Below are positions 5,879 through 56,344 of a stretch of 64,000 nucleotides of DNA, piece by piece. Location of the stretch: positions 1,612,001 to 1,676,000 of the forward strand of contig CANXME010002127.1 of assembly GCA_948144175.1 (NCBI GenBank). The letters are read 5' to 3'. The first letter of the stretch is position 1. The number at the start of each line of letters is the position of its first letter. Source of the DNA: Closterium sp. NIES-65. Lineage: Eukaryota; Streptophyta; Zygnematophyceae; Desmidiales; Closteriaceae. The position numbers and the translations under genes are program-made. The notes beneath the pieces were generated by a model, which ran no database searches, had not been told where the DNA came from, and was given only the letters and a program-made list of their open reading frames with translations.

Positions 5879-6453
5879 GCGAGCATGTGTGTCGCGTAAT
5901 TAACACACAGCTGAAGGTGTATTACACAGCAGCTATTGTGAGGGTGTTTTATATTTCATTTTGACAATTTGTTTCGTTTGTGTGTTTGGAGTGTTTTCGT
6001 TTTTGTACTTTACAGAGCCGAGTGGGTGGGGAAATGTCGAGGGAGTTGGTGGAGGCGCTAGCATGGCAAAGGAATTTGATTCCTTGCCAGCCAGCCTGGA
6101 TGGCGGTGCATGGCCAGTGGGGTGGGCGAGCAACCAGCTAGCACCTAGGTGCCTCCGCGACCAGCTGAGCTGGCTCGCGATCAGGCGCTAGGGCCAGTAG
6201 GAGTACTCTGCTCTAGGCAGGCAGGGAGGAGGATGAATACCAAGGACCTGCTTGGACTCGTTGCTTTTTGCCTGTTTGTTTCTCGTAATGCTACAATTCG
6301 TTTCCCTAACCAAGGAATCAAGTAGCTAGGAGAAGCATAGGCAATTCGGAAGGCCCTTACTAGGGAGTTCACAGCTGATTGCAAACAGGCAAAAAGGAGG
6401 CTGGTTTGAGCTTGAAAAGCTCCATAGTGTGCTACGGCTAACTGCCGTGAGGG
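5879..6453. other. Probable 5' leader of the gypsy element, no gene
   Basis: No coding signal and no clear LTR. It probably includes the upstream end of the gypsy element whose frame starts near 6454, but I could not define its 5' LTR or primer-binding site. Confidence 0.35.
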
Positions 6454-7761
6454 ATGAACGGTGAGCAGTTCGATCTGCACTCTCATCAACTAAGATCGGG
6501 ACAAAGCTACCCCACCAGGGTGATGGAGGGACGGGATCCACCACCAGTAAGGCAGTATAGGGTCGGCGAAGGTGATCCGAATGCTGCTGGCGGCAAGGAG
6601 GCCGATTCGCCGAAGGACAGTGACAGAGATCGGGAAAAAACAGCAAGCACGGCCTGCAACACGCCAGAGGGAGTGAGCGGTGCAAAACCAGGCGAAGGTT
6701 CGCGAGGAGTGATAGCTTCTCCCACAGCGGAATCAGCGCACGAGCAGGTTTGGATGCGCTCACGAGGAGGGAACTAAAGCCGCCAGCAGGAGTTTAACCG
6801 AGCAGCGCTGGCTGAAGATGATGAATTTGGACCTGGAGGGAACTGAGGAAGAGGGGCTGCAAGTTGGGGGTCAGGGAGAAGCATGAATCCGCTGATACCA
6901 AAGATCGAGGTACCAGATCGCTTCTCAGGAAATCCGGGAGAAGAACCATCGCTAAAAAATTACCTCATGGTGGTGGAGGATCTGAGGTACTGTTGGGATC
7001 AGGAGGGACTGGGCCTTATAGAGTTCTTCAGAGGGCTCGGCAAGACGCTTAAGGGAGAAGCCCAGACACACTATCGCGTGGAGAGGCAGGGATTGCTTCT
7101 GCAGTGCGGGCGGGGGGACTTCCCAGCAGTAGAAATCACGGATCGCTTTCTAGAAATGCTGCAGGAGCAGTTCCCGGGACACTCGGCAGAGCGGATGCTG
7201 GAATTCCAGGAGTTCAAGCGCGGGCGAGGGGAGTCCTTGTTCGCCTACTACAACCATCTGGTGGAACTCGCCAAGGATATGAGCTGCCCAGAGGAGAGGA
7301 CACTGGTGACGAAGTTCCTGGGGGGATTGGAGGAGGAGCTAGTGCACGAGATGAAGCCGAGGCTGTACTCCTTGGGGATGAAGGCAAAGCTTCGGCAAGT
7401 GTACCTGGTGGCCAAGGAAGTGGAAGAGGGTCGTCGCTTCTTTGACAGACTGAGGAGCTCCACCCGTAGTACTGAGAGAAGGTGTCCTGCTTGGGCTGCA
7501 GGAGAGGGTTGGAGGATGGAAGAGGAGAGGCATGAGTGGTTAGGTGACAATCGCAGGTGTCATAAGTGTGGGGAGAAGGGTCATATTCGAAAAGATTGTG
7601 CAGCAGGCGTGATCTGCGACACATGCGGGGTGAATGGGCACTTTCGGCGTGTCTGTCCCAAAGCTCCAACCTGTTCAACATGCGGCAAGAAGGGGTATGC
7701 AGAGGAAAGGTGTTACAGTTGGAGGGTCAGGGGGAAAGGGAAAAGCGCACGGGAAGTGTAG
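6454..7761 (+). pseudogene. Gypsy gag with three zinc knuckles
   Basis: The N-terminal part (6454-6774) is a polar linker containing DLHSHQLRSG. After stops at 6775 (TAA) and 6844 (TGA) the conserved capsid-like region starts at the ATG at 6883 (PLIPKIEVPDRFSG). It includes MLEFQEFKRGRGESLFAYYN and KFLGGLEEELVHEMKP, typical of retrotransposon gag. Three Cys-rich knuckles follow near 7558-7710: CHKCGEKGHIRKDC, CDTCGVNGHFRRVC and CSTCGKKGYAEERC. The third has Tyr in place of the zinc-binding His. The frame stops at TAG 7759 but resumes in phase, so gag was probably the N-terminus of a single polyprotein. Confidence 0.85.
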
Positions 7762-7794
7762 TTGGAAATGGAAGTGGCAAAGTTGAAGGCATAG

Positions 7795-8598
7795 ATGAGC
7801 AAGATGGAGGTGAGCGAAGATCCTGAGAAGGCGCTGTTGGCATGGGGAGAAGGAGAGTGGGATTCAGTAGATGAGGAGCCACCGGAGCACTCAATGGTGG
7901 CCATGGCGCCTAGATCACGAGAGGACCTAGGACTGAGGAGTGGAGGGAAGGACGGCAGAGTGGAACTCAAGACCTATGCACGGAGGCCGAGAGGAGTGCA
8001 GCAGGGAGCTAGAGAGAAGCGGAGCGCTCGCCGCCGCCTGGAGGAGAGGCTGGTGGTAGAGGCGGGCGCAATGGCAGTGAAGGGGGTGAAAGTGGAGCAC
8101 GCGGTGGCAGATACCGGCGTGCAGAGTGTGCTGATCGGCAAGCGGTTGGGAGAAAAGCTCAAGGCACGAGGAGACCTGGAGACAGTGGAGAAGGGCATGT
8201 TGATCATGACGGCAGAGGGAGGCGCGCCGAAATGGATGCCCAGCACGAAGGAGCCGATCGAGACAGCATTGCAGCCAGGGGAGAAGACACAAACACGCAT
8301 CACAGTGCAGTGTGGAATAACAGAGTCAGATTATTACTATGTGCTGCTCGGCATGGATATACTGTAAAAGATCGGCACAACGATATGCACCTGGGAAGAA
8401 AAACTGCTGTACTACACCAAGTACTAGGAAGAGGAGAGTCCTCAGGGAGAGCTACCGGTGAAATTCGTCAGGACAGAGCCACGGAGGGCCTGGAGGGCGG
8501 GAGGCGTGAAGGAATAGGAAGGGACCAGAGAGGGGACAAGGGTACAGTAGGGTGAGAGGAAGAGCAGCGCAAGCCTGCCAGACTACAGCATATGTCTG
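7795..8598 (+). pseudogene. Gypsy protease region and linker
   Basis: The frame 7795-8367 is in phase with gag and with the downstream RT. Around 8098-8115 it reads EHAVADTGVQSVLIG, which I take as the protease active site with A-D-T-G retained. It ends YYYVLLGMDIL, a typical end of retropepsin domains, just before TAA at 8365. The linker to 8598 remains in frame but has three TAG codons (8425, 8515, 8548). Function would need all of these to be sense or read through, so I call this copy broken. Confidence 0.7.
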
Positions 8599-11007
8599 GT
8601 GGAACTGTTTGGGGGGCTGGGAGCAGGTCTAGCGGCGGCGCTGGAGGTAGGGCTGGAGGTGCGCCGGTGGATCTACGTGGAGGTGGACCCCGAGGTGAGG
8701 AGGATGGCATGGGGGCATGCCAGGCTGCTGCAGGAACGCTACCCCGCCCAACTTCCGGCAGCGACAGTGCGACGCGCCATGAAAGAAGGGACCTGGGACG
8801 TGTGGCAGATTACACGCGAGACCGTGCGGATCTGGGGCGAAGTGGATCTGCTGGTAGCGGGATGGGAGTGCCAAGGCACTTCACGGGCCGGCAAGGGGAG
8901 AGGAATGCAAGACAGCAGGACCACATTACTAGACAAACTGCTGGAGATCATGCAGTGGATGAGAGAAGAAGGGAAGGAGTATGCGTATGTGCTGGAGCAT
9001 GTGGACATGACTGGGGACATGAGGGAGCCTGTGCGGGCAGTAAGAGAGAAGGTGGAAGGGTGCCTAGGAAGGGGGGTCAGTTGGGACGGTGCGCAGATGG
9101 GGGCGCGGTGCCACAGGTCCAGGATGTACTGGCAGAATGTGCTGCCGGAACGAGAATTGAGGGCGAGGGCAGCAAGAGTGGTTAGGGACGACAGCAGAAG
9201 GGTGGAAGAAATACTGGAGCTCGGGCGAGTGGCAGCACCGGTGGTAAAGCCCGATCACCCCAGACAGCACCAATGCAACCATGTGGGAGAGCCCCGGCGC
9301 GCCCTGCCCACACTAGTAGCGTATCGAGGGGCAAGGGGATTCGTGGAGACGGAGGGAGGTCCAGGGCCCAGAATGATCTATGATCCCCGCAGGAAGAAGT
9401 TGGAGGATCCCACTGCGCTGGAGCAAGAGCTAGCCATGGGTTATGCAGCCAGAGCGACAGCAACAGCCGGGGTGGATGAGCAGGCCAGGAGGGTAGCGCT
9501 GAGGAGAGCCATGGACCAGCACTCACTGCAGTGGCTGATCAAGGAGATGGCGAAGGGAGTCAGGGTGGAGCCGGTGGTAAGGAGGCAGCCAGCGTATGTG
9601 GCACAAGGGACCAAAGGGGGGGTCGCCATGGCTGGGGGCAAGGAAGGGATGAGACAGGAAAAGGAATGGGAGTTAGCAGATGACCTCGCATCGAAGGTTT
9701 CCAAAAGCATAAGGAAGCTGCTGGCAGAGCATCGCAACACCTTTGCCTACAGCCTGAAGGAGCTTGGTAGATACAAGGGAGGAGAACTAGAGATCAACTT
9801 GACCTCAGCAATCCCTACCTACCAGCGGAAGAGGCAGATGAGTGCGCAATATATCAGCATCTGCAAGGAGAAGTGTGCAAAGCTGCTAGCGGCGGGACTC
9901 ATCCGCCCCTCCGAGTCCAGCTATGCGGCAGCCACAGTGGTGGCGGCCAAGACCGACCTCACATGCGAAGTCCTATCCAGGCGGATGTGCGGTGATTACC
10001 GCGCTTTGAACAAAATCATAGAGCCTGATCTCTACCCCATGCCACAGGAAGAGGACATCTTCGACAGACTGGAAGGAGCGATCATCTTCACAATGCTAGA
10101 TCTCAGGCAGGGCTTAAACCAGATCAAGATAAGGGAGGAAGATAGGAGGAAAACTGCATTTCATGGCGCGGATGGGCTGTATGAGTGGGTTACAATGCCG
10201 TTTGGCCTGCGCAATGCATCTGCAGTGTTCCAACAGGTTATGGACCAGGTGCTGAAAGGGGTGCCAGCAGCAGCCTGCTACATTGATGATGTGCTCATCT
10301 ATAGCAGCAGTGACGAGCAGCATGAACACAACCTGAGAATGGCGCTGGAGGCCATAGCAGCAGCCGGGCTTACTTGCCATCCAGAAAAATGCAGGATAGC
10401 GTGCAGGTCGGTGGCCTACCTTGGGTTTGAAGTAAGGGGAGGTCGCCTGGCAATCCAGGAGGCAAAGGTGAAGGTGTTGGACAGGCTGGCACCACCAAGA
10501 GACAAGGCCAGGCTGCGGGCGCTGTTGGGCTTCCTAAACTACTATAAGAAGTTCATGCCCAACTTCAGCCGTCGCGTGGACGTTTTGAATCAACTGCTGC
10601 GGGAAGGGAAGAGCTGGCAGTGGGGGCAAGAAGAAGAAGCAGCACGGCAGGACCTGCTAGAAGCTGTGAAGACTGGGACGCTGCTGCAGATCCCAAGAGA
10701 TGATGCACTTTTCGTACTATACACTGACTGGAGTAGTACTGGGATAGAGGCGGTCCTGTGCCAGGAGATAAAAGGGGAAGAGAGGGTTGTGGCGTTCGCG
10801 AGCAGAAGCTGCAGCCCCACCGAGGCCAACTACTACTCCTACAAGGGGGAGGAGTTAGCACCCGTGTGGGGGATTACACATTTCAAGGTTTACCTGCAGG
10901 GGCGTCACTTCGTGTTGGTCACCAATCACCAGCCACTACTGTGGCTGATGAAGAACCAAGACTTCACTGGCCGCAATGCGCGGTGGGCTATGCGGCTACT
11001 GGGGTAG
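8599..11007 (+). CDS. Fusion protein: cytosine-5 DNA methyltransferase, reverse transcriptase, RNase H
   Basis: An 802-codon open frame. Residues 1-18 (MELFGGLGAGLAAALEVG) match methyltransferase motif I, the AdoMet-binding loop, and YVEVDP near residue 28 resembles motif II. Cys91 lies in GWECQGTSRAGKGRG, the motif IV catalytic position, with Glu where Pro is usual. E133 in LEHVDM resembles motif VI, and Q166 begins QMGARCHRSRMYW, like motif VIII. RT follows from about residue 393: YRALNKII, LDLRQGLNQIKI, MPFGLRNA and YIDD at about 561. RNase H starts near 705 (LYTDWSSTGIEAVL). The sense frame extends upstream of this ATG (DYSICLVELFGG), so the ATG is a frame opening and not a proven start. 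The protein would copy element RNA and might methylate DNA. The downstream integrase is missing. Confidence 0.85.
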   Translation: MELFGGLGAGLAAALEVGLEVRRWIYVEVDPEVRRMAWGHARLLQERYPAQLPAATVRRAMKEGTWDVWQITRETVRIWGEVDLLVAGWECQGTSRAGKGRGMQDSRTTLLDKLLEIMQWMREEGKEYAYVLEHVDMTGDMREPVRAVREKVEGCLGRGVSWDGAQMGARCHRSRMYWQNVLPERELRARAARVVRDDSRRVEEILELGRVAAPVVKPDHPRQHQCNHVGEPRRALPTLVAYRGARGFVETEGGPGPRMIYDPRRKKLEDPTALEQELAMGYAARATATAGVDEQARRVALRRAMDQHSLQWLIKEMAKGVRVEPVVRRQPAYVAQGTKGGVAMAGGKEGMRQEKEWELADDLASKVSKSIRKLLAEHRNTFAYSLKELGRYKGGELEINLTSAIPTYQRKRQMSAQYISICKEKCAKLLAAGLIRPSESSYAAATVVAAKTDLTCEVLSRRMCGDYRALNKIIEPDLYPMPQEEDIFDRLEGAIIFTMLDLRQGLNQIKIREEDRRKTAFHGADGLYEWVTMPFGLRNASAVFQQVMDQVLKGVPAAACYIDDVLIYSSSDEQHEHNLRMALEAIAAAGLTCHPEKCRIACRSVAYLGFEVRGGRLAIQEAKVKVLDRLAPPRDKARLRALLGFLNYYKKFMPNFSRRVDVLNQLLREGKSWQWGQEEEAARQDLLEAVKTGTLLQIPRDDALFVLYTDWSSTGIEAVLCQEIKGEERVVAFASRSCSPTEANYYSYKGEELAPVWGITHFKVYLQGRHFVLVTNHQPLLWLMKNQDFTGRNARWAMRLLG

Positions 11008-11485
11008 CCTGCAGTGGGCATGGTGAAAGGAGCACAGAGGGACCAAGAAGGGGTGAGGCAAATGGAGGAGAAAGGAAGAAGGCGAAACAGGAGAGGCAGG
11101 AGTTAGGGGAGGAGAAGACGAGGGCAGCAGCCAGCGAGAAGGAGGATTCACGACATGTGCCTTGTCACTGTTGCGTGAGAGCACAAGGCCCATGATCGCA
11201 ACGTGACAGTGCACGTCCATGTAATGTAGAGCAACGACCGAAATATCGGTCGTGATATGGTTGCGTCGGCAGGGGCGCGCGTGTGTTTCGCGGGGTGCTG
11301 CGGAATTCTGAGGGGTGCTCGGGTGTGACTCGAATATCCCCAGGTGCTCTGGTCGACCCCCAAGTGCCTCCTGTCGACCACCGGGTCCCTCTGGTCGACC
11401 ACCAGGTGCCCCAGGTCAACCACAGCTCCCGTCGAGCTACCTCCTGGTCGACGGACCCCTTCCGTCGACCAGAACAGTCAACGGT
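11008..11485. other. Junction region without a gene
   Basis: Lies between the RNase H stop and the recognisable copia LTR. It contains a perfect small hairpin at about 11235-11252 (CGACCGA, loop AATA, TCGGTCG). From 11340 the sequence is rich in GTCGAC and GGTCGACC, like the tail of the copia element at 17.2-17.8 kb, so its right part may belong to that element's LTR or flank. Confidence 0.4.
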
Positions 11486-11759
11486 TGTCGCCGTTGACCT
11501 TGCCATGCTGGAACGCGGTCGACCAAGCTGCGCTGGCAGTTGACCGACCTGAATGCTTGCTCTCATGTAGTCTTGCTATGCCAACTTCATTGTACCATTG
11601 TTCTGAACGTTTCCTAGTGGAACTCTTGCCAACTTTCCCCGTGAACTAGCAAGTAGTGTGTGCACAAGGAAAACGACCAAGGACTAACGAACGCAGAGAT
11701 CACACGAGCATCCGTGCCTAGCCCGTAGTCTAGCTCCCGTTGTAGCAGTTGTCTCCGCA
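11486..11759 (+). repeat. 5' LTR of the GTCGAC-rich copia
   Basis: Matches 17815-18088 almost base for base from GACCTTGCC through GCTCCCGTTGTAG to TCTCCGCA. The start is set where similarity begins. It could be longer if the GTCGAC-rich flank is also LTR. Confidence 0.75.
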
Positions 11760-12122
11760 TGGTGCGGTGAGCGTGGACGACACCGCGACGTAGTTCAGTC
11801 TAGCCGCCTTAGCACTTACCGATCGTGTTCGTAGACCGGCAGCCGTGCAGTCACTAGCTTGCGCGTAGGTGACGCCGAGGTGATGGACACCCTGGAGGGA
11901 CGGCTGGAGGATGCGAGGAGACGCCATGAGGCCCAGGAGTATGGGGCGATACCCTGGGCAGTCGTCGAAGCCGGACTCCGCTCCGTGTGGGCGGCGGAGC
12001 ACCCCCCTTCTCGACCTGCCTCTCCTCGACCGGTGAACAACGACGGCGGCGTCGACGTGGGCATCAACGCCGGTGGAGGTCAGGTCGGCAGCAGTGCGGG
12101 AGGCACGCCGAGGTAGCGAGGT

Positions 12123-13660
12123 GTGATACACGCCGGTGAAGTCGGCGGCGTTCAGGCGCGAGGGATGCAGTCGTCGGCGGCTGCAGGCTCTTTGCAGGGT
12201 GACATCGGAGGTCGACGGAGTGGGCTGTCGCCGATGTCGGCGTCCCAGGTGACGGCAGGTGGGATTGCGCCGAGCTACGGCTACTTCAAGTTTACGCCGG
12301 ACAGGATCTCGGTCACCCCTCCACTGGTCGGTCGACTCGACATTCTCACCTGGAAGGAAGCTATCGAGCCCCAGCTTGAGATGGCCGGGCTGATTGGCTT
12401 CGCCCGAGGGACCGTGGCGACGCCGGGGGAGCACCACCCCGACCTGCGTGCGGAGTTTCGCGCCGTGCAGCTGTTGACCTTCACGGTCATCTCGCGGTGC
12501 TGCTCGCCGGGCGTGCAGATCGCCTTGAAGTGGTGCTGGGAGTACATCGACGCCGGTCACCGGGCGTGGCACTTTATTGAGTCAACGTACCAGGTCACCG
12601 ACGACCTGTTCATCGCCCAGCTGGAGGGACAGCTGACGCACATGCGTATGGGTGACGAGGAGACAGCGACTGACTACTGCAACCGAGCCCGGCGAATTCT
12701 CGCCACTATCAGGATGGCCGGCGCGCAGTACTCCACGGCGTCGTACATCACCCATGTCATGCAGGGACTTTCTAGCAGCTATAACCTCCTGAAGCGGCTG
12801 TCTATGGCGCCGAGCACGAGGGCGACGCTCAACGAGGACAACCTGACCTCGTACATCCTGCAGGACGAGGCGATGCAAGAGGCTGAGCGGTCACAGGAAC
12901 TCTTGGCGCACGCCAACTTCGTCGCCCCGGCGAAGCAAGGAGGTCGACCGGGACAGCGCGGATAGTGTGGTGGCGGCGGGAGCAGTTGCTGGAAGCCGGC
13001 CAAGGAGGTTGACAAGAAGAAGTCGACCAAGGACAGCGGTCGGGGAGGAGGAGGTCGACGTCGGGAGTGCTGGCTGTGCGGCGACCCCGACCATCTCTCC
13101 TTCGAGTGTCCCAACCACAGTGACTCCGACGACGACGACGCTAAGGGAAGCCGTGGGAGGTCTGGCAGCCGTCGTCCTCGTCGTGGAGGAAACCAGCCGC
13201 GCAAGGAGAAGTAGTCGACCAAGACGTCGGCTTCGGCAAAGGACTCCGACTCCCCTGCTGGCGGCAAGGCGCGGGATGACAAGACGGCGTCGTGCTCGCT
13301 GGTCGGCGTCGTGGAGCCGACCATCTCGCTGGCGCCGGAGGCCGGGGAGGACTTCCAGGCGGTGGCGGCAGCTGTGCAGGCGAACCCGGCGGTAGTACTG
13401 CTCGACAGCGGCTGCTCCCACCACCTGATGGGGACGAAGGAAGCCTTCGTCGACCTGCATCCGAGCGGCACCATCAGGCATGTGCGCGGCTTCAATGGGG
13501 CGCTGCAGGACGTCCAGGGCCGTGGCACCGTCGCCCTACAAGGGGAGGCCGGGAAGCAGGTACTCATCCCCGACGTACTGTATGTCCCGGGTGTGCGGGC
13601 CAACCTGCTGTCGTCCGGCCTGCTGAAGGAGCACGGCGTGAAGCTGCAGGAAGGACGGAG
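12123..13660 (+). pseudogene. Copia gag and protease
   Basis: The gag region includes YFKFTPDRISVTPPLVG, WHFIESTYQV and NRARRILATIRMAGAQYS, consistent with the UBN2-type copia gag. After TAG at 12963 the same frame gives the zinc knuckle CWLCGDPDHLSFEC, then an Asp/Ser-rich stretch, TAG at 13212, and the protease core VLLDSGCSHHLMGT followed by VLYVPGVRANLLSSG. A frame change near 13660 moves the sense frame to 13666. Two TAG codons and one indel make it a pseudogene in this copy. Confidence 0.85.
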
Positions 13661-13665
13661 AGGGA

Positions 13666-14166
13666 ATGATGCTCGTCTCTGCAGCCGGAGTGGTGCTTGG
13701 TCGGGCGACGTACTCCGGGCGTGTCCTCTGCACCGACCTGCGTCCCTTCTCAACGAGGTCGACGTCGCCCACGACAGAGGTTGTGGCTCTGCGGGCGATC
13801 GTCTCGAAGACGAAGTCGACGCCGGACCGGATGCATGCGCGGCTTGCACATGTCAGCATGGACACCATACGGAGCTCGGCAAAGAACGAGGTCGCCATTG
13901 GGCTGGACCTCAAGTCGGCGACGGACGCCGACTCCCCGTGTGTCTCGTGCGTCGGCGGGAAACTGGCGTGGCACACCTTCCCCGACCAAGGCTCCGACGC
14001 CGACGACGTGCTGGTCGTCGTGCACATCGACCTGTGCGGGCCGTTCCGCGTGGCTGCCAAGGATGGCAGCCTGTACTTCTTGCTGCTGAAGGACCGCAAG
14101 ACCCGCTACGTGTGGGTGCAGCCGGTCGCCAAGAAGTCAGATGCGTTGCAGGTGTTCATGCAGTAG
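13666..14166 (+). pseudogene. Copia pre-integrase and integrase start
   Basis: Continues the protease after the frame change. It has MHARLAHVSMDTIRSSAKNE (pre-integrase region), the finger cysteines CVSCVGGKLAW and the first catalytic Asp in VVVHIDLCGPF. It ends at TAG 14164, and the next frame (14173) is in the same phase, so a single nonsense codon separates it from the rest of the integrase. Confidence 0.85.
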
Positions 14167-14172
14167 CTGGCG

Positions 14173-17013
14173 GTGGCTAAGCGGCAGACGAAGAAGCCGG
14201 TGTTGATGCTGCGCTCTGACCGGGGAGGGGAGTTCCTCGGGAAGCAGTTCACCGACTTCGTGAACGGCAAGGGGATCGTCCACGACCTGACCTGCCCATA
14301 CACCCCGCAGCAGAACGGCATGGCGGAGCGGGAGATGAGGACGGTGGTGGAGTCGGTGCGGACAATGCTGCTGCACATGGGCGTGCAGCACCACTGGTGG
14401 CACCTCGCTCTCCGGCAGGCCGTCTGGGTCCGCAACTGCCTTGAGAGGTCGGCGCTGCCGCCGGGGATGACGCCGTACCAGCTGCTGACCGGGAAGAAGC
14501 CCGACTTGTCGCTGGCGCGGGTGTGGGGCTGCATGGCGCAGTTCCTTGTCCCTGAGCAGCAGCGTGGTGGGAAGCTAAAGCCGAAGGCCAGGTGGGGCCT
14601 GCACCTTGGCGTGTCGGCGGCGAGCAAGGGCTGGAAGCTCCTCGACGTCGACACCGACCGAGTGGTCACCACGTCGGACGTGGTGTTCTACGAGGAAATG
14701 TCGCTGGCCGAGTGGAAGACGGAGCATGGGCCGGTGTCCGGCCGCTTGTCGTCCACCCCGCCCTCTGACACCTCGTCGTCGACGCTGCCACTGCTTGCCG
14801 AGGTCGGTGAGCTTGCTTCTGAGGACGTCGAAGACGTCCGCACCCCTACCCCTCCCCCTCTGACCCCTGCCCCTCCCCTCGTGGCCGACCTGCGTGGGCT
14901 GACCTCGGTGTCAGCCTCCGGAGTGAAGGGGAGTAGTGGGACGTCGCCTTCGACCAAGTGCATCGCCGGTGGCCGAGGTGACGAGTGGCAGGTTGACGTG
15001 GGTTTGGAGTCGACGTCGACAGGGGAAGAGCAGGTCAAGGAGCAGGCAGCCGTGAAGCCGACTACGGAGCAATCGGCGACCGCGCAGCCGGCAGGGGAGC
15101 AGATCACAGGGGAGAAGTCGGCTGGGACGCCGACCACAAGGGAGAAGTCGGCAGGGACGCCGGATGCAGTACAGCAGAACGCCAAGGGCAGCGACAGCGA
15201 CGATGGAGGGGAAGCCGAGGAGGTCCAACCAGGACCACGACGTTCACGCCGACTTCGGAGGCCGCCTGACTTCTTCGTCCCCGCGGCGTTCACCACGGTG
15301 TACGACGTGGACAACGATGACGACGACCTGCTCTACGAAGACGCCGAGGAGGATGAGGAGTTTCCGGAGCTCAACCCTGACATGCTAGCCGACCCGGAGC
15401 ACCGTTGGGACATCTCGACGATGACGGTGAAAGAGGCATTGGCAAGCTGGAAGGGCCCGGCGGTGAAGGCCGCCATGGAGGAGGAGATTCGCAGCCTCAT
15501 CAACATGGGCACTTGGGAGCTGGTCGAACGCCCGCCAGGAGTGAACGTCATGAAGAACCGGTGGGTGTTGACGACGAAGTACCACATCGACGACACCGTC
15601 GAGCGAGAGAAGGCGAGGCTGGTCGTGAAGGGCTTCACACAGGTGTACGGCGCCGACTACGACGAGACGTTCGCGCCGGTGAGCAGCTACGTCATGCTGA
15701 GGATCTTCCTCAGCATCGTCGCCGTCCTCAACTTCAACCTGATGCAGCTTGACATGAAGAACGCCTTCCTGCAGAGCAAGCTCGATCGGGTGCTGTACAT
15801 GTCCCAGCCGGACTACTTCAACGACGGAACCGGCCGGGTGTGCAAGCTGCTGAAGAGCCTGTACGGGCTGAAGCAGTCGCCGCTATTGTGGTACTTGGCG
15901 CTCAACGATGTGCTGGTCGACGCCGGGTGGAAGAAGAGTCAGGTCGACGAGGCTCTCTACTTCAAGGTCGACGAGTGTGGAGTGGCCTGCTGGGTGCTGG
16001 TCTACGTCGACGACCTGCTTGCCGCTAGCAGCAGCGCCGCGATGCTGAAGGAGCTGAAGGAGCTGCTGGAAGTCGCCTTCGAGCTGCGCGAGATCTTGCC
16101 GGTGCAGAATTACCTCGGGCTGGAGATCGTGCGCGACAGGTCGGCGGGGAAGCTGTGGCTGCACCAGCAGGGCTACGCCGACAAGTTGCGTAGGCGCTTC
16201 ATCGACGAAGAGCAGACCGGGCGCACCCCGAAGACGCCGGTCTCGGTCGGCGCCTACACCGAGCTCACCTTCAACGATGAGGAGGCGCAGGAACGGCAGG
16301 AGGAGGAGTACCGGCAGAAGGTCGGCTCGCTGCAGTTCGCGGCGACGACGACGAGGCCAGACAACGCCTTCGCTTGCAGCAAGCTGGGGAGCGGCCTCAC
16401 GGTGAGGAGCGACCAGCACTGGCGCGAGGTCGACCGCTGCCTCGCCTACCTCGCCAACACACGTGACACCGCCCAGGAGTTCGGCGGTGGACCTGGGTCG
16501 CTGGAGCTGGTCGGCTACGTGGACGCCGACAACGCTGGTGACAAGCAGAACAGGACGAGCACGGGCAGGTACGTGTTCGTCTACGGAGGGGCTGCAGTCT
16601 CCTGGTCGAGCCAGCGCATCAAGTGCGCGACGTTGTCGTCGACCGAGTCGGAGTACGTGGCGGCCACTGAAGCTGGCAAGGAGGGACGCCGCCTTCGCTT
16701 CCTCCTCACCGAGTTCCGGCAACTGGACGCCGTGAAGCCGACTGTCTTGCGCGTGGACAACAAGTCGGCCATCACGGTCACCGAGGGCATGGGGTTGACA
16801 GGCAACCTCAAGCACATGGAGCGGCGACAGGCCTGGCTGCAGCACATGGTGAAGCGCGGGAAGTTCTCGCTGCAGTACATCCCAACCGTTGAGCAGCCGG
16901 CTGACTTCCTGACGAAGGCGCTGCACTATCCGGCCTTCAACCGGTGCTTCGTCGCAATCGGCCAGGTGCGCTTGGCCGACGTGGGCGACGGCGACAACGA
17001 CGTGCAGCAGTAG
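14173..17013 (+). CDS. Copia pol: integrase, reverse transcriptase, RNase H
   Basis: A 946-codon open frame. Integrase residues: D in MLRSDRGGEF (about residue 14) and E in QQNGMAEREMR, completing D-D-E with the Asp upstream of the TAG. A Ser/Thr/Pro linker of about 200 residues follows. RT starts near residue 420 with GTWELVERPP and KNRWVL, then ARLVVKGFTQ, QLDMKNAFLQ and the catalytic YVDD at about 611. RNase H includes GYVDADNAGDKQNRTSTG and LSSTESEYVA, and ends QPADFLTKALHY. All visible catalytic residues are kept, so this is the healthiest copia pol in the window. The sense frame contains many GTCGAC hexamers (Val-Asp codons). Confidence 0.93.
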   Translation: MAKRQTKKPVLMLRSDRGGEFLGKQFTDFVNGKGIVHDLTCPYTPQQNGMAEREMRTVVESVRTMLLHMGVQHHWWHLALRQAVWVRNCLERSALPPGMTPYQLLTGKKPDLSLARVWGCMAQFLVPEQQRGGKLKPKARWGLHLGVSAASKGWKLLDVDTDRVVTTSDVVFYEEMSLAEWKTEHGPVSGRLSSTPPSDTSSSTLPLLAEVGELASEDVEDVRTPTPPPLTPAPPLVADLRGLTSVSASGVKGSSGTSPSTKCIAGGRGDEWQVDVGLESTSTGEEQVKEQAAVKPTTEQSATAQPAGEQITGEKSAGTPTTREKSAGTPDAVQQNAKGSDSDDGGEAEEVQPGPRRSRRLRRPPDFFVPAAFTTVYDVDNDDDDLLYEDAEEDEEFPELNPDMLADPEHRWDISTMTVKEALASWKGPAVKAAMEEEIRSLINMGTWELVERPPGVNVMKNRWVLTTKYHIDDTVEREKARLVVKGFTQVYGADYDETFAPVSSYVMLRIFLSIVAVLNFNLMQLDMKNAFLQSKLDRVLYMSQPDYFNDGTGRVCKLLKSLYGLKQSPLLWYLALNDVLVDAGWKKSQVDEALYFKVDECGVACWVLVYVDDLLAASSSAAMLKELKELLEVAFELREILPVQNYLGLEIVRDRSAGKLWLHQQGYADKLRRRFIDEEQTGRTPKTPVSVGAYTELTFNDEEAQERQEEEYRQKVGSLQFAATTTRPDNAFACSKLGSGLTVRSDQHWREVDRCLAYLANTRDTAQEFGGGPGSLELVGYVDADNAGDKQNRTSTGRYVFVYGGAAVSWSSQRIKCATLSSTESEYVAATEAGKEGRRLRFLLTEFRQLDAVKPTVLRVDNKSAITVTEGMGLTGNLKHMERRQAWLQHMVKRGKFSLQYIPTVEQPADFLTKALHYPAFNRCFVAIGQVRLADVGDGDNDVQQ

Positions 17014-17814
17014 GTGCCATGCCCTCTTGCATGGCTGGTGCGGTGACCGGCATGCTGTGTGTTGGGTGCACGCCGACGGGCTATTCTCGGAGCTGTACTA
17101 CCGTGTGGGCTGGGTGCCCAAGCGTGAACGCGGCAGGGGAGTGTCAACGGGAGTTGTGTGTTGGCCCCGTCCTCGCTTGGGCGGAGCCGACATCGTGGTC
17201 GGGTGTGTGGGGAGCAGCCGACCTGCAGCAGTGGGCGAGCTGGTTGACGAGGAGGTCGACCTGCACGGGGACCACTGCACGGGCGCCGACTTCAGGGTGG
17301 CGCCAACTTCGGGGAGGTCGACTTAGGAGTCGACCTGCGGAGGACGTCAACTTCGTGACGCCAACTTCGGGTGGCCGACATGGGTGGTCGGCCGACGACT
17401 GTGCTGGTCGACGTGGAGCTGGTCGACCAGGAGGGACGTCGACCTGGAGGAGGTCGACCGAGGGGCGTGGTCGACCTGGTGAGGTCGACGTGGAGGTGGT
17501 TGTCAACTTGGGAGGTCGATGGGCACGTACGGGAGCTGCTGGTCGACGTGGTTGCCCGGTCAACCAGGTTACCTGGTTGACGAAGTGCTGCGGAGGAGTG
17601 CTACGGTCGCCCAGGCGAAGTTGGCGAGACCGACCTCGGTGGTGGTATCCCGAGGTCGTCGTGGCGGATCAGAGGCAGTCGTCAGCTCGAGGTTGACGTG
17701 GTGTCTGCGCTGTGCAGGTGACGAGACTCTGCACGCCAATCATCTGCGCGCACCTGCGAAGCGGGTGCACTGCTGTTCTGCGCAAGCAACGCTGGCACGC
17801 CGTCAACCTGCGAC
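17014..17814 (+). other. GTCGAC-rich 3' region of the copia element
   Basis: No coding signal. Between about 17220 and 17580 the hexamer GTCGAC and the octamer GGTCGACC occur very densely, far beyond expectation for random sequence of this composition. A milder version of the same pattern occurs at 11340-11480. It may be part of a longer LTR or a satellite-like 3' UTR. Confidence 0.5.
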
Positions 17815-18088
17815 GTACGCCGTCGACCTTGCCGTGCTGGAACGCGGTCGACCAAGCTGCGCTGGTAGTTGGCCGACCTGAATGCTTGCTCTGATGTAGT
17901 CTTGCTATGCCAACTTCATTGTACCATTGTTCTGAACTTTTCCTAGTGGAACTCTTGCCAACTTTCCCCGTGAACTAGCAAGTAGTGTGTGCACAAGGAA
18001 AACGACCAAGGACTAACGAACGCAGAGATCACACGAGCATCCGTGCCTAGCCCGTAGTCTAGCTCCCGTTGTAGTAGTTATCTCCGCA
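17815..18088 (+). repeat. 3' LTR of the GTCGAC-rich copia
   Basis: Copy of 11486-11759 with few differences, ending TCTCCGCA. It runs directly into the 60-bp minisatellite. Confidence 0.75.
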
Positions 18089-18600
18089 TCCTCTGGCGCG
18101 GGATCTGCCGCAGTGCTTTCGCCGCGCCTCGCACCTCCGTCGCGCATCTCCTCTGGCGCGGGATCTGCCGCAGCGCTTCCGCCGCGCCTCGCACCTCCGT
18201 CACGCATCTCCTCTGGCGCGCGATCTGCCGCAGCGCTTCCGCAGCACCTCGCACCTCCGTCGTGCATCTCCTCTGGCACGGGATCTGCCGCAGCGCTTCC
18301 GCCGCGCCTCGCACCTCCGTCGCGCATCTCCTCTGGCGCGGGATCTGCCGCAGCGCTTCCGCCGCGCCTCGTACCTCCGTCGCGCATCTCCTCTGGCGCG
18401 CGATCTGCCGTAGTGCTTCCGCCGGCCTCGCACCTCCGTCGTGCATCTCCTCTGGCGCGCGACCTGCTGCAGCGCTTCCGCCGCGCCTCACACATCCGTC
18501 GCCCATCTCCTCTGGCGCGCGATCTACTGCAGCGCTTCCGCCGCGTCTCGCACCTCCATCGCGCATCTTCTCTGGCGTGCGATCTGCATCCGCTAGGTTC
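18089..18600. repeat. 60-bp tandem repeat, about 8.5 copies
   Basis: The unit contains CCTCTGGCGCG, GATCTGCCGCAGCG, CTTCCGCCGCGCC and TCGCACCTCCGTCGCGCATC and repeats every 60 bp with few substitutions, plus one single-base deletion near 18423. Because 60 is a multiple of three, long repetitive open frames appear on both strands. They are not evidence for genes. Confidence 0.9.
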
Positions 18601-18731
18601 CCCTGGCGCCTCTTCCCACTCCTGCACACCTCGTCTGCCAAGCGAGTCGCTTCACCTCCGCGCTCTTCGCGTTCTTCTCCCCTGGGCAGCGTATTTTTCA
18701 CGTATTCTTGAGTAACCCATTCAGCGCATCC

Positions 18732-44760: not shown

Positions 44761-45252
44761 TGTTGTGCAAGCAAGAATGTCCCAGTGGGTAGATTATCAC
44801 CTTTGGTCTTAGAGGTCGTGGGTTCAACTCTCAGGAGCTGCATTCTCTCTTCTCATCATGCCCAACATGACATTCCCACACTCCACCATACTCACCCACT
44901 GTGAAGTGTGGTCACAGTTGGCTTTGCCATCTGTCCACTCATCCCATACTCACCTTGCTGGCCCCTATGGTGTGCCACATGCTGCCATGTAGGCTGTTGT
45001 ACCAGCCTGGACCACATGTGCAACATGTGGCCTTAGTTGCTAGCTTGGCAAGGTTGGCTAGCCTTGCCCTCAGCTTTGAGGTGCTGCAGCTAGCCTCAAG
45101 AGTTCAGCCACATATATGTGGCTTCCCACTTCTCTAGAAATTATCCTTGGCAAAGGACATTGCTCTAGCCTCTCAGGCTTGTACCATCTTCCTACTAAGG
45201 ATATATTGTTCTTCTCTCATTGTGCCTTAAGTTCACCGATCCTCATTCTACA
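44761..45252 (+). repeat. 5' LTR (492 bp) with tRNA-like words
   Basis: Pair of 49765-50256. Near its start CCAGTGGGTAGA and GGGTTCAACTC lie about 40 bp apart, resembling Pol III A and B boxes. The 3' LTR repeats them (CCAGTGGTTAGA, GGGCTCAACTC). Confidence 0.92.
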
Positions 45253-45279
45253 TGCTATCAGAGCTAGGCTTCTAGCTTA

Positions 45280-47613
45280 GTGAACGTTGCACACTTGATG
45301 GGTCAAGTTGAAACGCCTCTCGGTCGGCACACCCTTCCCATCTTGGAACCAGATGGTTCCAACTTCATTCCATGGAAGAAAAAGATATGCTACATCTTCA
45401 ACGTCCTTGGGCTGATCTCCCTCCTTGGAGATCCCAAGGTTGCTTCGCGTCCTTCAATTTCCTCTTCCACAACCAGCGGTGGAGAGGCTACCGAAGGCAA
45501 CAGCGGTGCAGCCCCTAAAACAGCCCATTAAATTGCTTCGCTGCCGGATGAAGAAAAAGAGGAGCATGCATACTATCTTCTCATGTCGGCCGTCCATCCT
45601 CAACTATCGCTCACTCTTGCTCAAGCAAACATGAAAAAGGATATGTGTGGATGCATCATGGCGTGGTTCGACTGCATGGGCAACCATGCACAAGTGGCTC
45701 TCCTCCGGGATCTCATCACTACTCGGATGGACCCAACAACAAGTCTTCGCTTCTACTTCGATCGAGTTGGAAACCTTACACACCAACTCAAATCTGCCGG
45801 CTTCCAGTTACCATCATGGGTGGTGATAATCTCCATCATCCTCAACCTTCCGGGCTCGTTCAAGACTCTTACTGAAACCATTTGCACCGTGAAAGACATC
45901 AAGTCTATGACGGTTGAATACCTACAATCACGCCTGCTCGATGCCGATTGGGAGCGGTCACAATCTGGTACAAGCCGCAACATGGAGGGTGCCTGCAACC
46001 TCAATTCTCAGCCCTCCCACCCTCTTCGCTCCGGTTCCCGCCAGTCGCCCACCTGCCGTTACTGCAAGAAAACTGGTCACGCCATCGACGAATGCTTCAA
46101 ATTGAAAAAGAAGAAAGAGCTTGAAGAAAGCTCTAAACAGGAGAAATCCGTCATCCAGCCTTCGGTGCATGTCTCCACCAGCTCCTCTGCTGAAATTACT
46201 CCGACCCCCACACCACCTCCTGCCCCATCAGCCCCTCAGTCTGTACCTGATTCCCGGTACGTTGACATTGCTGTTAGCACTAGCCACCACCCCATGATCT
46301 CCTCATGGACTCCTCTCGTCGCTACTGTCTTCATTTTCACCATCCTCCTTCTCCTCCCCCTCTTCCCTTATGGGGCTCCCTTCGCATCGGCATTCACGGC
46401 CTCCTCATTCAACATGGACCGGACTTCGTCGTGGCTGGTGGACAGCGGCGCATCCTCCCATATATGCTCGGATCGTTCGCTGTTTTCGTCTCTCCAGAAG
46501 CCAAACAAAGATATCCTTGTTCGTTTTGGTGGTGGAGAGACTTACGAGGATTTGGGAGTCGGCACGTTGGTGGCTACTCTTCGGTCACCAACATCGGAAA
46601 CCACCATTCAGCTGGACAACGTTTTATTTCTCCCTTCATCAGTTCACAACCTTCTCTCTGTTCGTGCACTTGCTGCTGCCGGCGTTGCCGTCTCGTTCCC
46701 CGCTGCTAGGCGCGTTGTTCTCACAGCAGATGACGCTCCTATTGGCGAGGGTTATACCCGGAACAACCTGTTTTATCTTCAACTGCATCATGGGAGCAGT
46801 GCTGCTCCTTCTATCAAGCCAACGGCATGTCCAGCCTCCACCACTACCTCCTCGTACCTCTGGCATCGTCGTTTCGGGCAACTCAACATGCAGGACTTGT
46901 CAACACTTCATCGACAGCAGCTGGTCACCGGTCTTCACCTCTCCTCCACCTCGATTCCCCATTGCATCTCGTGCTATCGTGGGAAACAAACACGTCAACC
47001 GTTTGGCGTGTCCCATTCTCGCACCACAGCACCACTCCAACTCATTCACTCCGATATTGCTGGACCGTTTTCATATGGAACTACCCTTGGCGGCGCTCGC
47101 TACCTTCTCACCTTCATTGACGACTACTCCCGCCACATTGCAGTGCATCTCCTACGCCACCGATCGGAGGCACTTTCATGCTTCAAGGCTTACATCACAC
47201 GGGTACACAACATGCATTCCCCACACACCATCAAAGCCTTTCACTTTGACGGTGCCTTGGAGTTCACTTCCAAAGCCTTCACTTCATTCCTTACAGCTCA
47301 TGGCATCGCTCGCCACCGCTCTACGCCATACACACCCGAGCAAAATGGAGTAGCCGAGCGCGCCAACCGCACTTTACTTGAGATGGTCTGTTCCATGCTA
47401 CATGATGCACACATGGACAAAGGCGGGTGGGGTGAAGCCGCTCTTACTGCTGCCTATCTCCGTAATCACGCCATTAGTCGGGGTGGTTCAACTTCTAAGA
47501 CTCCCATGGAACTATGGACCGGTGCACGTCCGGATGTATCACACCTCCGCATCTTTGGTTCACCTGTCTCGGTCCTCATTCCTTCCCAACGACGTTCTAA
47601 GCTCGACGACTGA
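45280..47613 (+). pseudogene. Copia gag, protease, integrase
   Basis: The gag N-terminus (45280-45531) has ILEPDGSNFIPWKKKICYIF and stops at TAA 45529. The frame 45583-47613 continues gag (TSLRFYFDRVGNLTHQLKSA), the zinc knuckle CRYCKKTGHAIDEC, the protease WLVDSGASSHICSD, VLFLPSSVHNLLSVRAL, the pre-integrase WHRRFGQLNMQDLSTLH and the integrase with D in IHSDIAGPF, D in FHFDGALEF (usual NGG replaced by GAL) and E in EQNGVAERANR. It ends at TGA near 47611, and the conserved continuation (VGYGHLDGTKANCIYIPS) follows after 47629. Confidence 0.87.
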
Positions 47614-47628
47614 AACACGGCCGGCATC

Positions 47629-48773
47629 ATGGTTGGATATGGTCATCTTGACGGCACCAAAGCTAACTGCATTTATATCCCATCTCAGCACTGTGTCATC
47701 CTTTCTCGTGATGTCATCTTCATGGCGCCCTCTGCACCACCTTCCGACGACCCTCGAGACCCTACATCGTCATCTCCACCCACATCCTCCTCACTACCTC
47801 CTCCTCCACACCCTACTTCCTTGGCCCCCACCTCCCCTCCCTCTCCTTCCCCCATCATACCCTCCTCCGCCAACCCCCACCCACAATCCCCAAACCTGCC
47901 CGCACCAGCCACATGTTCTCCTCCATTGTTTTCCAACCTTCCTCTGCCCTCGACGCCGCACGACTTTCACCTTCCATCCTTCTCTCCTCCCTCTTTGCCT
48001 CCTCCTCCCCATTGCACGACTCGCTCCTCATCACCATCCCCTTCAGCTCTTCATGATCCTTCCCTTTAATCCTTGCTCAAGGTCGTACCATCCCCTTCCG
48101 AGCCCATTGACTTCACTCTTCCTCCTCTTTCCAACACCTACACCAATGCTGCCCTTCATCATCATTACGAACCTCAACCATTCATGAGGCTCGTACCGGT
48201 CCTGATGCTGCTGAATGGATCAAGGCTACTGATGCGGAACTTGCTGCCCTGCACGCTAATGACACCTATAGCATTGTTCCTTGACCACCCAAGTGCAAGC
48301 CGATTCCATGCAAATGGATTTTCAAGGTCAAGGATAATGCTGATGGTTCTATTGAACGCCGCAAAGCCCGCCTTGTTGTCAAACGCTTCAAGCAACGTGA
48401 TGGTGTTGATTTTCATGACACCTTTGCCCCTGCAGTCCGCTTCGCCACTCTCCGCTTGTTTCTCACCATAGCTGCCGCTTTCAACCTGGACGTCCATCAG
48501 CTGGACATCTCCAACGCCTTCCTCAACGGCACCCTTGATGAGATTCTCTACATGATGCAGCCTCCCGGTTATTAACTTCCGGCGGTCCGTGGTGTTGAGC
48601 AAGTCTGTCTTTTGCACAAACCGCTGTACGGGTTGAAGCAAGCACCGTGATGCTGATACCGCAAGCTTCGTGAGGAGCTTGCTGCCTTTCACCTCTTTGC
48701 TGCTCGTGCGGACCCCGGCCTCTTCATTGCTCCTCCTCACTCACCCTATCGGCCTACGGCTGCATCCTTCTTC
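47629..48773 (+). pseudogene. Copia linker and RT fingers, with stops
   Basis: After a Pro/Ser-rich linker (47730-48060) the RT starts near 48200: AAEWIKATDAELAALHANDT, KPIPCKWIFKVKDNADGSIE, FHDTFAPAVRFATLRLF, HQLDISNAFLNGTLDEILYM and LHKPLYGLKQAP. Stops interrupt it near 48284, 48574 and 48647. Confidence 0.8.
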
Positions 48774-49730
48774 ATGCTTCTCGTCTATGTTGAGGACCTC
48801 ATCATTCTCTCCTCCTCCTCCTCCTCCTTCTCCTCCTCTCTTCTTGCCTCATTCAAGCATGCCCTTTCATCTCGCTTCAAACTTCGTGGCCTCGGACCTC
48901 TTTCCTACTACCTTGGCTTTCACATCACTCGTGATCGAACTTTCCGCACTCTCCACCTTCATCAATCCAAATTCATCACCTCCATTCTAGACACCTACTC
49001 ATTCTCTCCACTAAACCCCGCTGCCACTCCCATGGACACAAAGTTTCAGCCACCTGTGACTTCCTCCCCGCACTCCTCCTCCTTCCCTTACACCTCGTTT
49101 GTCGGATCCATCATGTATGCCATGGTGGGGACCCGTCCCGACCTCGCATACAGCGCTGGAGTTCTTGCTCGTCACCTTCATGATTGGTCTACTCCTCACG
49201 TCTCGGCTGCCAAACGCATTGCTCGCTACTTGAAAGGGACTCCCTCCCTTGGGCTTCTCCTTGGTGGCATTCCCGACACCCTCGAACTTCATGGCTGGTG
49301 TGACGCCTCTTGGGGACCGGAGGGGGAGCTGCGTCGCTCCGTTATGTGCTACTTGTTCTTCCTCGGTCCGTCACTCATCTCTTGGCAGTCCAAACGCCAA
49401 GCTGTCGTTGCTACCTCTTACTGTGAAGCTGAATATTACTCTTTGGGCGCCGCGGTGCACGAGGCATTATGGCTTCGTTCCCTCCTTACTTGTATCTCGT
49501 GTGACAACAGTGCCATCATTCTCGCCAAGGACGATGGCGTCTTTCATCCCAAGGCCAAGCACATCGACATCAAGCACCATTTCATTCGCGATCGTGTTGC
49601 CGACCACTCCGTCACCCTTCACTATGTTCCTACTCAAGACAACCTCGCTGACATTGGCACCAAGCCTTTGCCCCGTGACCCTTTTCTTCGCATTCGTGGT
49701 CTTCTCGGTCTCACCCATGTTTCCTCTTGA
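48774..49730 (+). pseudogene. Copia RT palm and RNase H
   Basis: Begins at the RT active site, which reads LLVYVEDLIIL (YVED instead of YVDD). It continues YYLGFHITRDRTFRTLHLHQ, GTRPDLAYSAGVLARHL, and RNase H with WCDASWGPEGELRRSV, KRQAVVATSYCEAEYYSLG and IDIKHHFIRDRV, ending NLADIGTKPLPRD. The RNase H catalytic acids look present; the altered RT box should disable reverse transcription. Confidence 0.85.
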
Positions 49731-49764
49731 AGAACCCTATCCCGGGGACATCCTTGAGGGGGGG

Positions 49765-50256
49765 TGTTGTGCAAGCAAGAATGTCCCAGTGGTTAGATTA
49801 TCACCTTTGGTCTTCGAGGTCGTGGGCTCAACTCTTAGGAGCTGCATTCTCTCTTCTCATTATGCCCAACATGACATTCCCACACTCCACCACACTCACC
49901 CACAGTGAAGTGTGGTCACAGCTGGCTTTGCCATCTGTCCACTCATCCCATACTCACCTTGCTGGCCCCTATGGTGTGCCACATGCTGCCATGTAGGCTG
50001 TTGTTCTAGCCTAGACCACATGTGCAACATGTGGCCTCAGTTGCTAGCTTGGCAAGGTTGGCTAGCCTTGCCTTCTGCTTTGAGGTGCTGCAGCTAGCCT
50101 CAAGAGTTCAGCCACATATATGTGGCTTCCCACTTCTCTAGAAATTATCCTTGGCAAAGGACATTGCTCTAGCCTCTCGGGCTTGTACCATCTTCCTACT
50201 AAGGATATATTGTTCTTCTCTCATTGTGCCTTAAGTTCACCGATCCTCATTCTACA
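49765..50256 (+). repeat. 3' LTR (492 bp)
   Basis: Pair of 44761-45252, followed by the duplicated target GAATT. Confidence 0.92.
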
Positions 50257-53009: not shown

Positions 53010-54200
53010 ATGGCGACTGACACTGTGCCTATTCACACCGGCTCCATCGTTTGCCTAGAGGTCCAGGACGGCACTACCGCACTGAATTGGCACCGTTTCT
53101 TACAGAGTCTCACCGGCGTCCTCGGCTCCACCATTATTGGCGGTGTCAACCTCCACTCCGTTGTCTTTGCCGAACCGGATGGCCTTGAGCCCAAGCCACC
53201 TCCCCTCCTTGGTCTTGAACCTCCTCCTCCACTACCCTATCCTGTCGAAGCACCTCGCCCGCCCGATCTCCCTCGCCTCGTTTCTAACACCACCACCAAT
53301 TCCTCGCGCCTCACCACCTACGCGAAGGAGGTAGCGACACACACACGACTGGTAGATACCCACAAGGCAGCCCTTGCTGCTCACACCACGGCTGCAGCCC
53401 TTCATGCGAAGTACACTGTTGATAAGACGTCATACACATCCCAGCTGACTGATTTCCATACTCGCCATGCCGCGTGGTGCATTGCCGACACTCAGGCTAT
53501 TGGCCTCATCAACTCCTGCATCCCGACCTTGCTGCAGAGCGAGCTTGACGCCACTTCCTCTGCAGTTCTCTGGCGCGCCCTCAATGATTTGTATGACCGT
53601 CGGGACATGGCATCTCTTCATGCCCTGTACCATGACTTCAACGCTATCTCCCTTGACAACTGCACCGGCGCAGCTGACTATACCTGTCGCCTCAACAACA
53701 CGGCTCGGCGTCTTCGGGAGCGTGGGGCCACTATTGACGACCCCCTCCTCATTTGGCGCATCCTCGAGGGACTCACCCCGGCTTATGAGATGCACCGCAT
53801 TGCCTACGACATTGTTCTCTCTCCCCACGCCACAGCTGCCGAAGTCACCACATGGGTCCTTGATACTGAAGCCAAGCTTACCTGCCAGTCCCCCTCCACC
53901 CTCAACTTCACACAGGGACGCGGAGGACGTGGGGGGCGTGGTGGCAAGGGTCGTGGTGGAGGGAGTGCCGGAGGCGGTGGTGGTCGAGGTGGAGGGGCTG
54001 GCAGTGGCACTACAGGTGGGACATCGGGAGGTGATGGGGGTGCTGGTCGTGGTGGACGCTCAGGGGGTTTCCCTCCTTGCTCCTATGTCATTCGACAAGG
54101 CCCCGACAAGGGCCATCGCTGCAACCAAACCACCCATCCTGCTAAAACCTGCTTCAAGGCGCGCACTGAACCACTGAGCTCCTTGGAGCCGATCGAATAG
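53010..54200 (+). pseudogene. Copia gag with an expanded Cys/His knuckle, truncated
   Basis: Includes LEVQDGTTALNWHRFLQSLT, DTQAIGLINSCIPTLLQSEL and ALYHDFNAISLDNCTGAADY, YTCRLNNTARRLRERGATID and LEGLTPAYEMHRIAYDIVLS, a copia gag. A Gly/Arg-rich tract follows, then [20 protein letters not shown] and PAKTC, a knuckle with 13 residues between the first two cysteines. From about 54160 the frame reads antisense gypsy sequence to a stop at 54198. Confidence 0.82.
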
Positions 54201-55634: not shown

Positions 55635-56344
55635 CGGCAGTGATAGGACTTGTGGCCGAGCTTGCCACGGATGCGGCAGCCCGCCGGGGGCTTATCCTCA
55701 TCTTGAGGATCCTTGGCAGGCCCACCATGGGCCCTCTTGGACTGAGTCCCAGAGGATTCCCCCTTCTGCTGATAGGGCCTCTTCCAAGAGCCACCGCCCC
55801 TGTGGGCCTGAGTCCTGCTACCACCCCCCCTAGGGCCTTCGGCACTAGGCTGCTGCTGAGCACGAGCGTGAGTCATGTACGCACGGAAATTCACATCCGT
55901 GTCAATGACCTGCTCCTTGCACTCCTTGTAGGTCCTCCACTGGTGCTCCCCACACACAACATGCACACGCTTGATGTGCTCAGGGAGTCGCTTGAAGAAC
56001 TGGTGGATGACCTCGCTCTTAGGAAGAGCAGTCTTCAGCAGCAATAGAGTTTTCTCAAACTCCTTGGCGTACTCGCGTACAGGCTAGTCACCGCACTGGA
56101 TGTTCTCCAGGCGGCTACGCACCTCGAGCGCCGGGGGCTGACTCATAAATGCCACCAACATGGCAGCTTTGAACTCCTCCCAGCCAAAAGGATGGCCATT
56201 AGCCTCTGGGTGGCGCTTGTTGGGATACACCAACTTGCTCGCACTGTCGTCCAGGGCAAGGGTCGCAGCGACCACGCGAGCCTCGCTACGCACATTGTGG
56301 ATGGACATAAAGTCCTCCGCAATGGAGAGCCAAGTGTCGGAAAC
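55535..56344 (-). pseudogene. Gypsy gag
   Basis: From 56344: TWLSIAEDFMSIHNV, PFGWEEFKAAMLVAFMSQPP, then TAG at 56084, then PVREYAKEFEKTLLLLKTAL and LPEHIKRVHVVCGEHQW. The knuckle is CRIRGKLGHKSYHC (second Cys replaced by Arg). A frame change near 55540 leads to the protease frame. Confidence 0.8.

Follow-up and report, generated by a model that had tools for sequence, protein, structure and literature searches.

A Ty3/gypsy retrotransposon family of Closterium with a DNMT3-like cytosine methyltransferase domain upstream of the reverse transcriptase

Introduction

In the available text of de Mendoza et al. (2018; PMC5890265), DNMT3 is described inside the Pol of Gypsy elements of Klebsormidium, named KnitGypsy-Dnmt3, and in DIRS elements of Symbiodinium. 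Two of the Symbiodinium DIRS enzymes were active and gave CG methylation in yeast; the Klebsormidium Gypsy enzyme gave no methylation there, a result that the authors deemed inconclusive, and methylation of the retrotranscribed cDNA was proposed for the elements bearing such an enzyme (PMC5890265). In the available part of a paper that cites the 2018 study, streptophytes and dinoflagellates are said to carry DNMT3 members in their LTR Copia and DIRS elements, and a lineage termed ChloroDNMT is recognised in chlorophytes and charophytes (PMC12344493). Another host-type nucleic-acid-modifying enzyme captured by a plant Gypsy element, an AlkB-type m6A RNA demethylase, is described for Ty3/Gypsy of orchids in the accessible sections of PMC9289625; it differs from the case presented here in the enzyme, in its RNA substrate and in being an additional ORF.

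The family that we describe from Closterium is most like KnitGypsy-Dnmt3 in its host, a streptophyte alga, in its Gypsy-type Pol with a DNMT3-class methyltransferase (MT) inside the Pol ORF, and in its conserved key residues (PMC5890265). The MT is conserved in both, as judged by Ka/Ks for KnitGypsy-Dnmt3 and by a protein-level proxy for Closterium (PMC5890265). The repeats of KnitGypsy-Dnmt3 are arranged in the fashion of DIRS elements, whereas no LTRs were found for the copy in the window, that is, the whole 64,000-nucleotide stretch of Closterium sp. NIES-65 DNA that was analysed; the comparison is with the published description only (PMC5890265). SymbioDIRS-Dnmt3 also has a DNMT3-class MT in a retrotransposon Pol and is a model for self-methylation of cDNA, but it is of the DIRS class, with a tyrosine recombinase, and lives in a dinoflagellate (PMC5890265). 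The hosts of DNMT-bearing retrotransposons in the available text of that study are K. nitens and Symbiodinium; here the host is Closterium.

The class of element is not new, DNMT3 in a Gypsy Pol having been described from Klebsormidium (PMC5890265). What is new is the Closterium family and the difference in the order of the MT, because we found no mention in the open-licence literature of this family, of two MT orders or of a glutamate in motif IV; nor was a paper found there that treats Closterium, retrotransposons and DNA methyltransferase together. A further streptophyte host, a kinship with elements of a chlorophyte and two different places within Pol would make clear that the capture of such enzymes and their long retention are more than a Klebsormidium oddity.

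Results and Discussion

The open frame and the state of the window copy

MT, reverse transcriptase (RT) and RNase H are joined in a single open frame on the forward strand at 8596-11004 of the window, with no stop between them, as the preliminary description had it, and the frame is open from 8551 to 11004. The ORF named there, 8599-11007, is found in the ORF list of the window with 802 codons, but its GTG at 8599 is only a mechanical start: the same frame extends upstream without a stop to 8551, and the first residue of motif I is at 8596. All the motifs that had been pointed out were located, namely motif I (LVELFGGLGAGLA) at 8596-8634, motif IV (ECQGTS) at 8866-8883, motif VI (LEHV) at 8992-9003 and motif VIII (RCHRSR) at 9106-9123 of the MT, and YIDD of the RT at 10279-10290. 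Motif IV agrees with such a motif in its catalytic cysteine (8869-8871) but not in its first residue, the canonical form being PCQ and the present one ECQ. The motif VI glutamate lies at 8995-8997 and two motif VIII arginines at 9115-9117 and 9121-9123.

The DNMT3-like cytosine-5 MT domain, recognised from motifs, Pfam, profiles and predicted fold, spans 8596-9558. A profile match had been proposed as a check, and Pfam DNA_methylase does match residues 1-330 of the ORF (E 5e-5, 23.2 bits against a cut-off of 22), while on the whole 802-residue ORF the score is slightly below the cut-off, 21.7 bits; the NCBIfam match is weak (dcm, 6e-6) and below its cut-off. A linker (9559-9678), which lies between the stretches compared as domains, leads to the Ty3/gypsy RT region at 9679-10620 (RVT_1 at 9982-10434, E 3e-28) and to RNase H at 10621-11004 (RT_RNaseH, 2e-27; RT_RNaseH_2, 8e-24). 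TAG follows at 11005, and here the element is apparently truncated. Directly beyond this end lies a separate element of Ty1/copia type (11489-18089, +).

Upstream, on the same strand, Gag with CCHC zinc knuckles is found at 6883-7758 (zf-CCHC, E 7e-7) and is ended by TAG at 7759; it is 69% identical to Closterium protein P0013 over 295 columns. Retrotrans_gag scored 0.055 on it, below the cut-off. A possible N-terminal extension, in frame with gag, lies at 6454-6774 and ends in TAA at 6775, and by eye the stretch immediately 5' of 6883 is similar to the N-terminus of P0013. The aspartic protease (PR) occupies 7795-8364, with DTG at 8110 and TAA at 8365, and is 58-65% identical to the proteases of P0002, P0003, P0004 and P0013; its Pfam scores (gag-asp_proteas 7e-4, Asp_protease_2 2e-3) are both under the curated cut-offs, so that zf-CCHC is the only gag or PR match to pass. 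The spacer between PR and MT (8365-8595, +) holds stops at 8365, 8425, 8515 and 8548, and its equivalent in the relative P0002 is open.

Gag, PR, RT and RNase H thus lie in one frame of Ty3/gypsy type, which fits the retrotransposon polyprotein of the preliminary description, but stops break this frame in the window copy and separate gag and PR from the MT, so the unbroken fusion is here only MT-RT-RNase H. Between 6454 and 8550 there are eight stops (6775, 6844, 7759, 7792, 8365, 8425, 8515 and 8548). No integrase could be assigned to this copy 3' of 11005 when integrase pieces of seven relatives were compared with the window; they match only at 13.8-14.5 kb and 47.0-47.6 kb, both within copia-like ORFs, and at 58.1-58.7 and 60.1-60.4 kb on the reverse strand, which belong to another gypsy element. 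A repeat comparison within the window gave no direct repeat pair flanking 6000-11200 that could be LTRs, and the 3' end of the copy is missing. The working element that had been implied is therefore not present: because of the upstream stops and because no integrase or LTRs were found, the window copy is a decayed, 3'-truncated and dead one in which the MT-RT-RNase H core is open. The base composition of the MT is not sharply set apart from that of gag and PR (GC3 0.70 as compared to 0.64-0.66). ARAGORN found no tRNA genes in the 64-kb window, and no Rfam family reached its gathering score there.

The methyltransferase domain

Motifs I, IV, VI, VIII, IX and X of the C5 cytosine methyltransferases (PF00145) are present in order, with two exceptions in the residues of the window MT: the proline of motif IV is glutamate and the glycine of motif X is arginine. 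We compared 42 near-full-length MT domains, the window and 41 of 66 related proteins, the other 25 being excluded as incomplete by profile coverage. The catalytic cysteine, the motif VI glutamate and a motif VIII arginine are kept in all 42, and in 39 a glutamate stands in place of the motif IV proline. The motif X glycine is kept in the other 41, with arginine only in the window copy; this arginine, the eight stops and the lack of an integrase match mean that the window copy cannot itself show function. Among all 66 proteins motif IV reads ECQ in 58, while PCQ, ACQ, ACE and ECV occur once each; four are without a match, P0061 and P0063 having ECA and P0011 and P0012 no site.

DNMT3 is the nearest class to the MT, both in sequence profile and in predicted fold. 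Family profiles matched DNMT3A/B in the PDB at 3e-10 when built from 7 sequences and at 1e-18 when built from 10, and DNMT3 ranked ahead of DRM-type enzymes, M.HhaI and DNMT2-type chains. DNMT3 also gave the best Z for the predicted fold, with M.HhaI and M.MpeI just about 3 lower. It is conceivable that the domain acts on RNA in the manner of DNMT2-type enzymes, on the RNA of the element or on a tRNA primer, or that it binds nucleic acid and does not methylate. The MT adjoins the RT, RNA methylation has been suggested for the LINE class in the available text of PMC5890265, and the change from proline to glutamate in motif IV could alter the activity of the MT. We consider such a role very unlikely, as the catalytic residues are kept, profile and fold are DNMT3-like, and DNMT2-type chains are far behind (E 1e-3 as compared to 1e-18 for the 10-sequence profile).

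A bacterial, phage or giant-virus origin of the MT was also considered and rejected for the sampled IMG/VR and GTDB genomes, in which tblastn found no relative, while an unsampled virus is a conceivable source. Scans with the MT alignment gave 114 pattern matches in IMG/VR and 29 in the GTDB genomes, none of them a relative by tblastn. Among viral structures the model matched a phage C5-MTase best (E 2e-11, 17% identity), less strongly than it matched DNMT3 in the PDB (E 2e-14).

Relatives and domain order

Protein sequence searches, each scoring about 8000 candidates, gave at least 66 related proteins, from Closterium NIES-53, NIES-54, NIES-65, NIES-67 and Naga37s-1, from Chlamydomonas eustigma (three) and from metagenomic sources. 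No Klebsormidium protein was seen in these searches among the relatives that bear an organism name. Closterium NIES-65 is a zygnematophyte of the Streptophyta. The order of the domains was counted in proteins with an RT-RNase H match at E<=1e-20 and an MT match, excluding P0001, which is the locus itself. The MT lies 5' of the RT in all five Closterium relatives, as in the window, and after RT-RNase H in all 27 non-Closterium elements, from Chlamydomonas eustigma and metagenomes, and the placement upstream of a gypsy RT is indeed unusual, as had been remarked.

The elements of Chlamydomonas eustigma and metagenomes (P0031-P0066) resemble the window in having a homologous MT, mostly with ECQ, and an RT and RNase H of Ty3/gypsy type. 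They are unlike it in that the MT comes after the RT and, in five of the six scanned with Pfam, before an integrase (no match in P0062); RNase H precedes the MT in five of the six (no match in P0061). All six have a PHD finger C-terminal of the MT, which might guide integration to marked chromatin, and in precomputed Pfam domains the finger is listed for 22 of the 36 proteins P0031-P0066, or 23 of 37 counting P0014. The region that follows the integrase core in the non-Closterium elements has a homologue in the tail at the end of Closterium P0005, which suggests that an integrase was present in the Closterium family too.

The copy is broken and stands beside a copia element, as could be expected if an assembly error or a local rearrangement had brought MT and RT together. 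The chance of this is negligible: proteins of NIES-53 and NIES-54 show the same domain order, and P0001, a publicly available Closterium sp. NIES-65 gene model, agrees with the window at 100% of the 285 MT residues that it covers. As the same order recurs in other Closterium strains, the fusion is not a local accident found only here. We are highly confident that Closterium harbours a Ty3/gypsy family with a DNMT3-class MT between protease and RT in Pol.

Two MT proteins, P0015 (Closterium Naga37s-1) and P0026 (NIES-53), share by eye a similar N-terminal stretch, and P0015 has no Pfam match besides the MT; they may be genes that stand alone, members with a different architecture or truncated gene models. 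The last 180 residues of the polyprotein P0014 have no Pfam match at E<=1 and resemble by eye a second methyltransferase-type fold (EPCxGxG, then ASPHF).

Conservation of the methyltransferase

In near relatives the identity to the window is 69-71% for the MT, 67% for RT-RNase H (P0002 only), 58-65% for PR and 69% for gag (P0013 only). In far relatives it is 48-52% for MTs without internal gaps, 51-57% for RT-RNase H, 42-49% for PR and 31-39% for gag; this is a protein-level proxy, in which the MT and RT figures of far relatives stem mostly from different proteins. The MT has changed at about the pace of the RT, lagging it slightly in near relatives and outpacing it slightly in far ones, and since it is conserved about as well as the RT, these comparisons suggest that it is in use.

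A passenger MT, retained only because the frame must stay open, appears quite improbable when this conservation, in far relatives well above that of gag, is considered together with catalytic positions that are intact throughout the 42 domains. It would agree with the gaps within the MT of five Closterium proteins (P0008, P0009, P0010, P0011 and P0012), in which MT identity to the window is 37-49%, but decayed copies annotated by automatic gene prediction may account for these. It would also agree with the relics of at least one other gypsy element at 53500-62300 on the reverse strand (pieces of gag, PR, RT, RNase H and integrase), where the MT queries found no match; the MT is therefore not needed by every gypsy element here.

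One origin or two

The window MT is 26-36% identical to that of seven aligned non-Closterium elements, and the window RT-RNase H is 33-39% identical to that of non-Closterium elements over at least 430 columns. In the MT tree a single branch sets the eight Closterium rows apart (100/100), and they are grouped with P0038, a non-Closterium element with the MT after the RT (98/95). In the RT tree, which is without an outgroup, P0038 sits with P0031 and P0032 (94); its different place in the two trees speaks against simple co-descent of MT and RT. IMG/VR yielded no reference RTs with which the RT tree could be rooted. The distances of MT and RT are correlated: over 24 rows the Mantel r is 0.78, and it is 0.58 when the two Closterium rows are taken out; in neither set did any of 5000 permutations reach the observed value. 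The correlation is inflated by near-identical rows, and it fits co-descent with a change of place. The distances between Closterium and the others are larger for the MT than for the RT by a factor of 1.3, against a 5-95% range of 0.7-1.6 among the other elements, which gives no hint of a recent swap of the MT.

It may be that one ancient lineage of DNMT3-bearing Ty3/gypsy elements spans the chlorophytes and streptophytes, and that the MT was relocated within Pol, from the gap between RNase H and integrase to that between protease and RT, or the reverse. The catalytic residues would have been kept and the unusual motif IV glutamate would be common to both orders, with the MT as a self-contained module retained because methylation of the element's own DNA pays. 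We regard this scenario as possible and on the whole rather doubtful. Alternatively, the MT may have been captured on two occasions from a related donor, or exchanged, given the conflict over P0038 and an RT tree without an outgroup.

Proposed function

Transposons are often silenced through DNA methylation, and an element with an MT of its own may therefore turn this weapon of the host into a tool. In intact members of the family the MT would be produced as part of Pol and packaged with the RT in the virus-like particle, where it would methylate cytosines in the newly synthesised double-stranded cDNA, either ahead of integration or in the course of it. Each new copy would then be inserted into the genome with its mark in place, and the mark could lower its recognition as foreign DNA or set the later expression of the element. 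The observed basis is the domains and their order, the kept catalytic residues, the recurrence across strains and a conservation of the MT about like that of the RT.

For methylation of the cDNA as the mechanism, of which the activity, the target and the benefit are all inferred, we put the chances a little short of even. The motif IV glutamate, the gapped proteins P0008-P0012 and an MT slightly less conserved than the RT in far relatives count against it, as does the Klebsormidium Gypsy enzyme that did not methylate in yeast (PMC5890265, in its available text). The MT could also mainly methylate DNA of the host or the element after integration, as self-restraint or with altered host chromatin near the insertions. 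The evidence from the enzyme is identical for the two, and the available text of PMC5890265 raises both self-restraint and host effects. A domain embedded in Pol would be expected mostly in particles together with the cDNA, and we find it unlikely that methylation after integration is the main role. The full explanation, a decayed copy of the Closterium family in the window and intact members that would methylate their own cDNA, has in our judgement an even chance of being right. Strains of Closterium are a possible natural material for studying methylation of cDNA before integration.

Other elements in the window

Several further retroelement remains were observed in the window. The copia element beyond the truncated gypsy copy is bounded by LTR matches of 272 nt at 11489-11760 and 17818-18089, 97% identical; its gag (PF14223) and its pol (RVT_2, 3e-53) are encoded by different ORFs. 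A direct repeat pair of 492 nt (44761-45252 and 49765-50256), 97% identical, lies around ORFs at 45583-49730, judged copia-like by eye, which include the integrase match at 47 kb; 44761-50256 is probably a second copia element with LTRs. Just past the first copia element there is a tandem array of units of about 60 nt at 18029-18661.
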